A model generated the notes under the pieces. The model saw nothing but the letters and a program-made list of their open reading frames with translations, searched no databases and was not told where the DNA came from. 64,000 nucleotides of DNA from Nitrospira sp. (GTDB taxonomy: Bacteria > Nitrospirota > Nitrospiria > Nitrospirales > Nitrospiraceae). Shown here piece after piece: positions 26,702-30,638 of this stretch (the first letter of the stretch is position 1; the number at the start of each line of letters is the position of its first letter). The stretch is from positions 127,485 through 191,484 of the forward strand of contig SWDM01000018.1 of the NCBI GenBank assembly GCA_005116835.1, read 5' to 3'. Both the position numbers and the translations under genes were made by a program.

Positions 26702-27517
26702 GTGGCCTTGCAAGATAACTCTGGCTTCCTCCAGTGGTCGATCATCATTCCAGCCCATAATGAAGCAGGGCGCATTCTTCCCTACCTTCGAAACATCACC
26801 TCCTATATGCAAGGCCGAGGACAGTCCTACGAGATACTCGTGGTTGACGACGGCAGCACCGATGCCACGGCCGTCGTGGTTGAAACCATGGCTTCTTCGA
26901 CCCCCGAGATTCAGTTGCTCCGAGCCCCGCTGCGCCAAGGCAAAGGCGCAGCAGTACGACGCGGGATGAACGCGGCCATCGGACAATTACAGCTATTTAC
27001 CGATGCGGACGGCGCCACTCCGATCCAAGAGCTTGCCCGACTAGAACAGGCCATGGTAAGCGGAGCCGACGTAGCCATAGGCTCGCGCGCACTTGCCTCC
27101 CGGCTGCCTGGCTATTCTGTCCAGGCCCGTTTGCATCGAACCGTTTTGAGCAGCCTGTTCAATTCCCTCATCCGGCAGAAGGGTCTCACCGGAATCAACG
27201 ACACGCAATGCGGATTCAAACTTTTCCGTCAATCTGTCGCGGCAGATCTCTTTACAGTCTCCTCAATCGACGGCTTTGGCTTCGACCTCGAACTGCTCTA
27301 CGTGGCACAACAACGCGGATATCACATTGCCGAAATTCCGGTGAATTGGTCCCATCAGCCAGGCTCAAAGTTTCGCATTGTCAGGGACGGGATCGCGATG
27401 CTGCGTGAATTGACCCTGATCAGACGGAATTGGGCCAAAGGCTATTACGCTTTCCCCCCACCAGCACAAAACATCCGTCCTTCTACAGCCGGTCAAGGCG
27501 CACTTCCCCTGCAATAA
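26702..27517 (+). CDS. family 2 glycosyltransferase (dolichyl-phosphate glucosyltransferase type)
   Basis: A 271-residue GT-A fold enzyme. IIIPAHNEAGRI (~14-25) starts the nucleotide-sugar domain, VVDDGSTDAT (~47-56) binds the uridine, TDADG (~100-104) is the metal-binding DxD, and GFKLFRQ plus FGFDLELLYVAQQRGY are typical of Alg5/DPM1-like enzymes that glycosylate a polyprenyl phosphate. No membrane helix is seen. GTG start. The C-terminal ~25 residues are Pro-rich. It is followed by the pseudo-caspase lipoprotein but the 174-bp gap argues against tight coupling. Confidence 0.88.
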   Translation: MALQDNSGFLQWSIIIPAHNEAGRILPYLRNITSYMQGRGQSYEILVVDDGSTDATAVVVETMASSTPEIQLLRAPLRQGKGAAVRRGMNAAIGQLQLFTDADGATPIQELARLEQAMVSGADVAIGSRALASRLPGYSVQARLHRTVLSSLFNSLIRQKGLTGINDTQCGFKLFRQSVAADLFTVSSIDGFGFDLELLYVAQQRGYHIAEIPVNWSHQPGSKFRIVRDGIAMLRELTLIRRNWAKGYYAFPPPAQNIRPSTAGQGALPLQ

Positions 27518-27691
27518 AGCTCCTCGAAGGTTACCGGACATCTCAACCTCCCTCTGCTCGCAAAATGCTCTCGCGCCCTGCTACATTCAGCCTGATAGTT
27601 CGGCACGATACCGGACGTGAAGTGCCGTCACCAGCACAACACTCGGCCCATGGTCATCGAGCAACACTCAAGAGCCTTATCTCAACGATCC

Positions 27692-29545
27692 ATGATGCAA
27701 TGGACCATTCTCTCGTGTCTCCTCATCACCGCAGCTGGGCTGTGGGGATGCGACAAGCTGACCTCCGCGTTCCACCGAACTCCCTTACCGGACATGGGCC
27801 CGCGTCTGACCGACTCCGTCAGGCTGACTTTCGACCCTGCCTTTAGCAATCTCACCATGCAGTATATCGATGGATGCAACAGCCCCCACGAGCTCAACGT
27901 CGGGGAAGAAGTCGCATCGACCATGATCGATGCGACTTCTCAAACTTTTGCAGCCGTGAGCGTCACCGGCGGAACCGCTCCGCAAGTCCAGCCAGACAAG
28001 GAGATCGTGGTTACGCTTCAACGCTCAGGCCTCAAACTGTGGGCCGACAATGTCTATGACCGCGTGCCGGCAGACCTGACCCTTGAAACCCTCTTGACCT
28101 TCAAGGATGCCGCGGGAAAAGAGCTTGGCCGGCAGACCATTTCCATCGCGCATAACCAACGGCTTATTTTGGAACCGACCCAACGCCGGTGCGATTACGG
28201 CAACATCCGTGAGTTTGTGCATGACGCCGGGATCGCCCTCTCGACACAATTCATCCGCGCCGCCCGTACCCAGTTGGCGGCAACCGGCAGTTCCACTCCC
28301 GCATCGATGGCAACGGAGGCGCTCACTCAGCCAGTTCTACCGGCGTCGACCATGCAGACCAAAGGCGCTCTGTCGGCTCTTACGTTTAAGGCTACCCTGC
28401 TGGACGAGAACAGTAACTTAGTCTTTGAAGGTGGCGAGCGCATTCGGGTACGGATCGATCTCATGAACGGAGGAGACCAGGACCTTCAGGCAGTCACCGC
28501 AACCCTGACGGGAACCGCCTTGTTGCTGACCCAGTTTCCCTCGACTTCCCTTGCGATCGGAGGGCTGCAAGCCAGCCAATCCCGCTCGATCGAATTTGCG
28601 GCAACGTTGCCACAATCCGTCCAACAACAACAGGCCGAAATTCATGTGGCGGTTTCTGGATCGGGAGCCCGTATTCAGCCGCCGCAGCAAACCCTGACTC
28701 TGTTGATCCACCCCGGCGGCATTAGGGCCGACGACGTGGACGAAATCCCTTCAATCGCCGCAGGGTTTCGACAGCCCCACTCCTACTTGATCTCAATTGG
28801 GATCGGTTCTTATCGAGATCAGCATATCCCTTCCCGCAAATTTGCTTCCATAGATGCCGCGACAGTTTCAAGCTACTTCCAATCCCTCGGTGGGTTTCCG
28901 GCATCCAATGTTCAGCTGCTACAAGATTGGAAGGCGACAAGCTCGGACATTGACGAAGTTCTGCTGGATTGGCTGCCATCTCGCATAACCAAGAACGCGG
29001 TGGTCATTGTCTATTTCGCCGGGTTAGCGTCGGTGTCTTCAACGGGAGAGATATTCCTCGTTCCGTACGATGGAACTGCCACGACTGCCTCACGATCTTA
29101 TCCGCTCAAAGACTTGGAGGCAGCGCTGTCTCGGTTAAAACCGAAACAGACGGTGTTTTTATTCGATGGGGTCGTAGTGCGCAGGGGGGCGGAGAATAAA
29201 ACTAAGACCGCTCCTCCCCAATGGAATCCCACCGAGAGCTCGACCCTCCATATCATCGGAAGCAGCGGGATAGGAAGGGGCTTGGAAGACGATCAGCACC
29301 GACATGGCCTCTTCACCTATTATCTGCTGCGGGCCCTGCGCGGCGAGGCCGATACCAATCGGGACGGCGACGTGATGCTCGGAGAAACAGTGGCGTATCT
29401 CAGCCAGAAAGTGCGCTGGGCTTCCAAGACCCACTTGGGCCAGGAACAACGCCCCTTCGCTGTTCCGGCAATCAGTCCGACCGATTCTTCCTTTACTTTG
29501 CTCTTGACCAGGCTCCCCGCAATCCAGAGCACTGATGCCCACTAG
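27692..29545 (+). CDS. lipoprotein with catalytically dead caspase-like domain
   Basis: About 617 residues. Lipobox LWGC with Cys20 after MMQWTILSCLLITAAG sets the start at 27692. Residues ~25-200 are a beta-rich LPP20-like domain, ~215-345 an immunoglobulin-like domain (DENSNLVFEGGERIRVRIDL), and ~360-605 a peptidase C14 fold (YLISIGIGSYRD, NVQLLQDW, VIVYFAG, TVFLFD, HGLFTYYLLRALRG). In active caspases YFAGHG supplies the His and DxCHSG the Cys; here they read YFAGLAS and FDGVVVRR, so both catalytic residues are missing. Probably a binding or scaffold role at the outer membrane; function unknown. Confidence 0.8.
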   Translation: MMQWTILSCLLITAAGLWGCDKLTSAFHRTPLPDMGPRLTDSVRLTFDPAFSNLTMQYIDGCNSPHELNVGEEVASTMIDATSQTFAAVSVTGGTAPQVQPDKEIVVTLQRSGLKLWADNVYDRVPADLTLETLLTFKDAAGKELGRQTISIAHNQRLILEPTQRRCDYGNIREFVHDAGIALSTQFIRAARTQLAATGSSTPASMATEALTQPVLPASTMQTKGALSALTFKATLLDENSNLVFEGGERIRVRIDLMNGGDQDLQAVTATLTGTALLLTQFPSTSLAIGGLQASQSRSIEFAATLPQSVQQQQAEIHVAVSGSGARIQPPQQTLTLLIHPGGIRADDVDEIPSIAAGFRQPHSYLISIGIGSYRDQHIPSRKFASIDAATVSSYFQSLGGFPASNVQLLQDWKATSSDIDEVLLDWLPSRITKNAVVIVYFAGLASVSSTGEIFLVPYDGTATTASRSYPLKDLEAALSRLKPKQTVFLFDGVVVRRGAENKTKTAPPQWNPTESSTLHIIGSSGIGRGLEDDQHRHGLFTYYLLRALRGEADTNRDGDVMLGETVAYLSQKVRWASKTHLGQEQRPFAVPAISPTDSSFTLLLTRLPAIQSTDAH

Positions 29546-29642: not shown

Positions 29643-29653
29643 AGATAATAGAA

Positions 29654-29682
29654 GAGGGTGGAGGATCGAATCCTCCACCCTC
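29654..29682. terminator. perfect hairpin terminator of the cytochrome c gene
   Basis: GAGGGTGGAGGAT and its exact complement flank CGA. It lies 26 bp beyond the minus-strand cytochrome stop and is followed on that strand by TTCTATTATC. It could also stop the plus-strand lipoprotein transcript. Confidence 0.8.
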
Positions 29683-29708
29683 TCATGAGCCTTGAGGCTG
29701 TGACGAAA

Positions 29709-30155
29709 CTACTCGCCCTTACAGAAGGTCCGCTCGTAGTTGATGATCGTCCAGGCTTCTTCTTCCGAGATAATAGCCGGTGTCAAGGAGATCATGCCTG
29801 TGCCGACACTCCCGTTCTTGATGATCCAGAAGAGCTCGCCATCTTTCCGCTTCTTATGGAATTTGCAGTTCGTGAAATCGCGGGGGCTCGGATTCAGAAC
29901 CTTACCGGCCTCGCCCTGGCCATCCCCATTCTTACCATGGCAATTGAAGCAGGTGCCCTTCCCCTCATACAGTGCCTTTCCTTTGGCAATGTTCTCAGGG
30001 GTTGCAGCAACCGGATTCTTGTTGGCCTTCGCGTCGGACATCTGATCAGCCGGGACACGGGCCTTAAGTGGATCCTTCTCCTCGGCTCCAACCACCGTAG
30101 CCGACAACATCAGCAGCGCTGCGCTGATTCCCAGGAACTTAGCAAAATACCCCAT
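29709..30155 (-). CDS. monohaem cytochrome c
   Basis: A 148-residue exported cytochrome. Signal peptide to ~24 (LLMLSATVVGA-EE). One haem site C69-F-N-C72-H73 and a later Met in GTGMISLTP as the likely distal ligand. The class I fold is extended by an N-terminal segment of ~35 residues (DPLKARVPADQMSDAKANKN). AAGGAGG 9 nt upstream fixes the ATG at 30155. Would act as a small periplasmic electron carrier; the partner complex cannot be told from the neighbours. Confidence 0.9.
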   Translation of the reverse strand: MGYFAKFLGISAALLMLSATVVGAEEKDPLKARVPADQMSDAKANKNPVAATPENIAKGKALYEGKGTCFNCHGKNGDGQGEAGKVLNPSPRDFTNCKFHKKRKDGELFWIIKNGSVGTGMISLTPAIISEEEAWTIINYERTFCKGE

Positions 30156-30638
30156 CAGATTTCCTCCTTTGTGTTTAACCACCGCACGTGAACTCGGCAT
30201 TGGGCCGCTGACGTATGAGGTCCGTATCAAACCGACAAAACGCGGGCGAATATAACAATGGCCTTCTACTCATGTCAAGCAATCCTGAGTGCTCTGATTC
30301 ACTTCCAGTCCTCGAATTTCATCACAACCTAACCTGATACCTATCAAAGCCCGTGCCAGAATATTCATTACGTGAGGGCATACTATTTCATCTAGTTAGA
30401 AGCACGTCTCATTCTTGAAATGGTTGAACCCTCAAAATGGTGGCGCCATTGCGCCTCAGTTCTGCGCCAACGCCACACCTCTTGATGCTCCATCCGGTCC
30501 ATCTGGCTCGTCTCATTCATCTGGTTAGCTTCATTCAACCAATCAGACGAGACAGGCCTGGCTCACTCCTGACCTGCAGGCTATCGAAACCCTGGGGTGT
30601 GAGATGGTTTGAGATGGTTATGGTTACGCTGCAAGCTG
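30156..30638. other. spacer with one hairpin repeat
   Basis: Upstream region of the cytochrome gene, 483 bp without a credible gene. At about 30497-30560, CTGGCTCGTCTCATTC then ATCTGGTT faces AACCAATCAGACGAGACAG, a member of the GGTT-word hairpin family. Confidence 0.5.

Follow-up and report, generated by a model that had tools for sequence, protein, structure and literature searches.

What can a caspase fold be doing in a bacterial lipoprotein whose catalytic residues have both been replaced, and does the replacement belong to a single gene copy or to a whole family? The question was raised by a gene at positions 27692–29545 (+ strand) of the window, the whole 64,000-nucleotide stretch of Nitrospira sp. 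DNA analysed here (contig SWDM01000018.1, positions 127,485 to 191,484 of the forward strand), which an earlier note, made without database searches, had read as a lipid-anchored pseudo-caspase fused to immunoglobulin-like and LPP20-like domains, with a binding or decoy role. The 617-aa product is, close to certainly, a conserved dead caspase, in which the catalytic dyad is gone and the C14 domain is maintained.

The reading frame, its anchor and its domains

The open reading frame runs from an ATG at 27692 to a stop codon at 29543–29545, and orthologues were found in nearly all Nitrospiraceae searched. A hydrophobic N-terminus followed by LWGC forms a signal peptide and lipobox ending at Cys20 (27692–27751, + strand), so that the sequence is that of a bacterial lipoprotein, and since Cys20 was invariant after a hydrophobic stretch across 25 diverse orthologues, lipidation is supported. 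The +2 residue is Asp in the window protein and mostly Glu, Ala or Ser in other orthologues. Asp at this position in E. coli can mean inner-membrane retention; an outer-membrane location, as given in the earlier note, is plausible for the pseudo-caspase by analogy.

The N-terminal domain (residues 39–197; 27806–28282, + strand), modelled alone with AF2, gave a pLDDT of 88, and Foldseek matched the model in the PDB to a minor lipoprotein, LptE, HpaA, PelC and CsgG (E-values 1e-5 to 1e-3). The fold predicted for this domain is shared with LptE/HpaA/CsgG-type lipoproteins, with TM-scores of ~0.3–0.5 by query length only, and sequence similarity to them was not detectable. Pfam gave no match in 50 N-terminal domains scanned, and the LPP20 family in particular was found neither in the protein, nor in 60 homologues, nor in those 50 domains; the LPP20 assignment was accordingly dropped for an LptE/HpaA/CsgG-like predicted fold. 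An Ig-like beta-sandwich follows (residues 228–342; 28373–28717, + strand), recognised from the strands of the AF2 model and from Pfam matches in homologues, where CARDB was matched in 15 and NPCBM_assoc/NEW3 in 8 of 60 sequences, so that the immunoglobulin-like part of the proposed architecture is borne out and its type is CARDB/NEW3. One homologue (L076) is without the Ig-like domain, and another (L060) is without most of the 201–226 linker, so that neither the linker nor even the Ig domain is a fixed part of the protein.

The caspase-fold domain occupies residues 363–607 (28778–29512, + strand). Pfam returned a single family for the 617-aa protein, C14 (PF00656; residues 369–588, E = 3.4e-7, 30.6 bits vs a gathering cut-off of 21.4). 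An AF2 model built on 60 aligned homologues had a mean pLDDT of 87, and its top Foldseek match in the PDB was the MALT1 paracaspase (3v4o_A, E = 9.5e-11, TM-score 0.72 by target length), followed at lower ranks by further caspases and metacaspases. Profile match and predicted fold together place the protein in the caspase superfamily (Peptidase_C14 fold), and the structure prediction suggested in the earlier note came out as a caspase. The fold landmarks quoted there were all present in the translation, namely YLISIGIGSYRD (364–375), VIVYFAG (438–444), FLVPYDG (455–461), TVFLFD (487–492) and HGLFTYYLLRALRG (538–551). A single-sequence search against solved structures gave no direct sequence match, and the NCBIfam model caspase_w_EACC1 was rejected at 36.6 bits, far under its cut-off of 140. 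MALT1 likewise combines caspase and Ig domains and is 16–18% identical, but in its caspase-Ig3 constructs the Ig domain comes after the caspase domain and the protein is an active protease, whereas in the Nitrospira protein the Ig-like domain precedes C14 and the dyad is lost.

A catalytic dyad lost once

Matches at E ≤ 1e-20 were obtained in 144 of 147 Nitrospiraceae genomes, and clear orthologues (E ≤ 1.5e-88) in 133 of 147, a few of these being fragments at contig ends; among the carriers are 'Candidatus Nitrospira defluvii' and N. moscoviensis, and orthologues lie at FP929003.1:3323599-3325446 and on NZ_CP011801.1. After removal of exact duplicates, two overlapping collections gave 109 distinct orthologues, some of which may represent one species in two assemblies. 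The position of the catalytic His is Leu445 in the window protein (29024–29026, + strand), and across the 109 sequences it is Q in 64, L in 34, V in 5, H in 4, and M and S in one each. The position of the catalytic Cys is Val494, preceded by the retained Asp of the DxC motif, Asp492, and by Gly493 (29165–29173, + strand for the three residues); it carries 11 residue types among the orthologues (I, T, M, A, S, V, G, L, N, K and R) and never Cys. Of the 238 C14 columns, that of the Cys position ranks 6th in variability, and its neighbours Asp492 and Gly493 are near-invariant and Val495 is conserved.

The two sites therefore read YFAG-L445-A and FDG-V494-V, as claimed from the sequence at the outset. 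The His-Cys dyad of an active orthocaspase is replaced by Leu445 and Val494, and a p20-like domain in which at least one dyad residue is substituted is the mark of a pseudo-orthocaspase. A survey of homologues for the two residues had been proposed in the earlier note, and its outcome differed between them, Cys being absent from all 109 and His being kept in four. A single mutated copy was ruled out by the same absence of Cys, and a decaying pseudogene by the open frames, low dN/dS and wide conservation.

The origin of the loss was placed with a tree of 81 C14 domains (IQ-TREE, 'careful'). In it, 52 dead sequences fell into a single clade (support 100/99) that sits within active homologues of other Nitrospirota classes, and the dyad was thus lost once in this clade, after which the protein diversified. 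The nearest active relatives (L201–L205 and L213) belong to other classes or families of Nitrospirota and carry GHG and DSCFSG motifs. L201–L205 share with the dead family the Ig-C14 order, the pocket Asp residues and, in most of them, the EF-type loop, and differ from it by the intact motifs. Within the dead clade, three subfamilies were supported: that of the window protein, an R/K-S group that includes a paralogue in the same genome (G000:C16:64849-66558), and an H/Q-P group whose members occur in a further family of the order too. The HA/HG/HP proteins L003, L087, L180 and L181 lost the dyad in a second, independent event.

Pseudo-orthocaspases as such, and weak dyad conservation in Nitrospirae, were already known (PMC6426788, PMC3501461). 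The bacterial pseudo-orthocaspases described by Klemencic et al. (2019, PMC6426788), and SyOC of Synechocystis (PMC7889975), likewise have a caspase fold, a substituted dyad, two pocket Asp residues and taxon-wide conservation. Their dyad is replaced by Y-S or Y-N, as against Q/L plus I/T/M/A in the Nitrospira family, which, unlike them, is a lipoprotein with LptE-like and Ig-like domains and an EF-hand-type loop, and has no link to photosynthesis. PMC6426788 makes no mention of Nitrospira. For caspase homologues of Nitrospirae, a dyad conservation of only 57% was given by Asplund-Samuelsson et al. (2012, PMC3501461), where no description of the family, its architecture, single origin or retained sites was found, and the other papers searched likewise did not describe this family, how it is built or that it arose once. 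Earlier discussion of pseudo-orthocaspases has centred on photosynthetic bacteria and on cell death; in Nitrospira, non-photosynthetic and ecologically central oxidisers of nitrite and ammonia, one is a near-universal core gene, and its dyad loss goes back to a single event that was followed by three conserved subfamilies.

Retained acidic pocket residues and EF-hand-type loop

Outside the dyad, acidic residues have been kept. Asp388 (28853–28855, + strand), present in 109 of 109 orthologues, aligns in a profile alignment to solved metacaspases with the DA motif and the S1-pocket Asp (TbMC2 Asp95), and Asp492, the equivalent of TbMC2 Asp211, is D in 106 and E in 3 of 109. In TbMC2, Asp95 and Asp211 form a pocket for basic residues, and the pair is retained in cyanobacterial pseudo-orthocaspases (PMC6426788). 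By sequence, the S1-pocket Asp pair is retained in the window protein too, and the metacaspase alignment backs the assignment of Asp388.

A 12-residue loop, DTNRDGDVMLGE (residues 554–565; 29351–29386, + strand), lies between helices 540–552 and 563–582 of the AF2 model and follows the DxDxDGxxxxxE-type pattern of an EF-hand loop between two helices. In all 109 orthologues, position 1 is Asp, position 3 Asn or Asp, position 5 Asp or Asn, and position 12 Glu, and an alignment of 60 homologues that include the sister subfamilies has just 7 invariant columns, two of which are positions 1 and 12. A profile search against solved structures gave weak matches at this loop only (E-values 0.16–0.69), all to EF-hand or calcium-binding proteins, and the Pfam EF-hand family was not matched in the protein or in the homologues scanned. 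The loop probably binds Ca2+. It is also probably ancestral, since many active relatives carry an EF-type loop, and both it and the pocket Asp residues, inherited from active ancestors, could have been kept for fold stability alone.

A nucleophile position that drifts while pocket and metal-loop residues stay fixed leads to the testable idea of a caspase fold with a role other than cutting, and binding or scaffolding is probably the best reading of the pseudo-caspase, in line with the first half of the role suggested in the earlier note. In the explanation that we favour, the protein is a conserved dead orthocaspase of the order Nitrospirales that, by the tree, descends from active Ig-C14 proteins through one His-Cys loss. 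A lipid on Cys20, expected from the N-terminal sequence, would anchor it in the cell envelope, with the LptE/CsgG-like predicted fold near the membrane and the Ig-like domain as a spacer. The caspase domain would have been kept for its surface, that is for the acidic pocket of Asp388 and Asp492, which in active relatives takes the basic residue of the substrate, and for the EF-hand-type loop at 554–565. The Ca2+-stabilised module would then bind an envelope protein by one of its basic peptide segments, which it would hold or sense without cleavage. This explanation is judged somewhat more probable than its negation; the doubt lies mostly in the binding mechanism, since location, Ca2+ binding, peptide binding and partner are what we infer, and very little of it lies in the identity as a dead caspase.

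Selection, neighbourhood and alternative roles

The C14 domain is under purifying selection, with a dN/dS of ~0.04–0.28 in close orthologue pairs, similar to that of the other domains. It is also an accessory that can be lost, and is dispensable in some lineages, where it has been dropped: three related genomes (G117, G123 and G139) have a closed gene of ~360–440 aa at the HtrA/TatC locus with the N-terminal and Ig parts and without C14 (a fourth, G070, was left out of the count since the gene runs off the contig end), and in another family of the order two homologues of ~370 aa (L223 and L228) are without the C14 domain. These short genes speak for the caspase domain being mainly a structural or evolutionary remnant, with the work done by the LptE-like and Ig-like domains. 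Against this stand the low dN/dS, the 19 invariant columns of C14 and its place as the most conserved domain, with a mean majority frequency of 0.69 vs 0.55 for the N-terminal domain, and a remnant is considered unlikely. The genes L105–L107, like L223 and L228, retain the N-terminal and Ig-like parts and have lost the whole caspase domain, and L105 has a second Ig-only copy that ends just past the start of the C14 domain.

Downstream of the pseudo-caspase gene lies a convergent single-haem cytochrome c gene (29709–30200, − strand; Pfam Cytochrome_CBB3), and at 72 of 89 orthologue loci a cytochrome c gene lies on the other strand no more than 1 kb downstream. Between the two genes is a strong hairpin with a 14-bp stem (29653–29683; −32.8 kcal/mol over a 71-nt stretch, z = −5.7), a probable bidirectional terminator. 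Upstream of orthologues, a divergent carbamoyltransferase gene was found at 54 of 91 loci and a divergent HtrA gene at 27 of 91, and in the window's own genus the upstream gene encodes a glycosyltransferase on the same strand. Comparison of window positions 26702–27692 with L034:1072-5148 showed that the window lacks the divergent genes for a carbamoyltransferase and a membrane protein that most genera have upstream, so that the glycosyltransferase gene comes to lie directly upstream on the same strand. Nine sister loci (L109–L116 and L118) were examined and all adjoin a cluster of cytochrome bd-like oxidase and cytochrome c genes, frequently accompanied by an NxrC-like and a UbiA gene; these loci belong to the R/K-S subfamily, except for L116, a basal N-S relative (dyad NS) from another family of the order. 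N. moscoviensis transcribes clusters of the bd-like/alt-NxrC kind at a high level (PMC6606698), and caspases are not mentioned in the main text of two Nitrospira expression papers.

The sister-type loci, the convergent cytochrome c gene and the high transcription of those clusters would fit a component or assembly factor of respiratory envelope machinery. However, the neighbours are convergent or divergent and share no operon with the gene, cytochrome c genes are abundant in Nitrospira genomes, and synteny of a core gene need not mean common function, and a respiratory role is rated as rather doubtful. Equally doubtful, and the most far-reaching reading considered, is a Nitrospirales-specific radiation of lipid-anchored pseudo-caspases that, gated by Ca2+, would function as peptide sensors or scaffolds in the periplasm, linked to respiratory envelope machinery and with subfamilies serving different cytochrome loci. 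A role in defence was rejected, the pseudo-caspase having no PADLOC match and lying in a housekeeping neighbourhood.

The second half of the suggested role, a decoy, was found to be weakly supported. A dead domain could pair, in a dominant-negative manner, with a secreted, active caspase made by the same cell, or shield its substrates, as cFLIP does with caspase-8, and candidate partners exist in the same genome, where two C14 proteins have an intact dyad (C16:185070 and C4:73945), the second with YFAGHG/DACRD motifs and an apparent signal peptide, beside three dead ones (the window protein, the R-S paralogue and the HA protein at C10:514291). Genome-wide Pfam C14 counts are lower bounds, the scan of this genome having failed to list the window protein itself. 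The complete, single-contig genome G081, which carries an orthologue of the window protein and in which every C14 protein detected above threshold is dead (HP, HN and RS), lowers the likelihood of a decoy directed at a caspase of its own cell; moreover, the orthologue set has low dN/dS and a synteny of its own, not that of a caspase, and the decoy is regarded as distinctly improbable. That the protein is still an enzyme, with another nucleophile or other chemistry, is very improbable, since Ser or Thr in place of the Cys, seen in 35 of 109 orthologues, and an invariant His538 are outweighed by a Cys position that also takes I, V, M, L, A, G and K and by the rarity of His, which leave no conserved catalytic pair at the site.

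Two further observations concern C14 genes beyond the orthologue set. In the second inactivated C14 family (G000:C10:514291-514971, equal to L003/L254, with L087, L180 and L181), GHA is retained and the Cys is replaced by A, G, N or P, and this family is conserved in several Nitrospiraceae genera. At four loci (L184, L185, L194 and L198), the full pseudo-caspase gene is followed immediately by further partial copies or fragments of itself.
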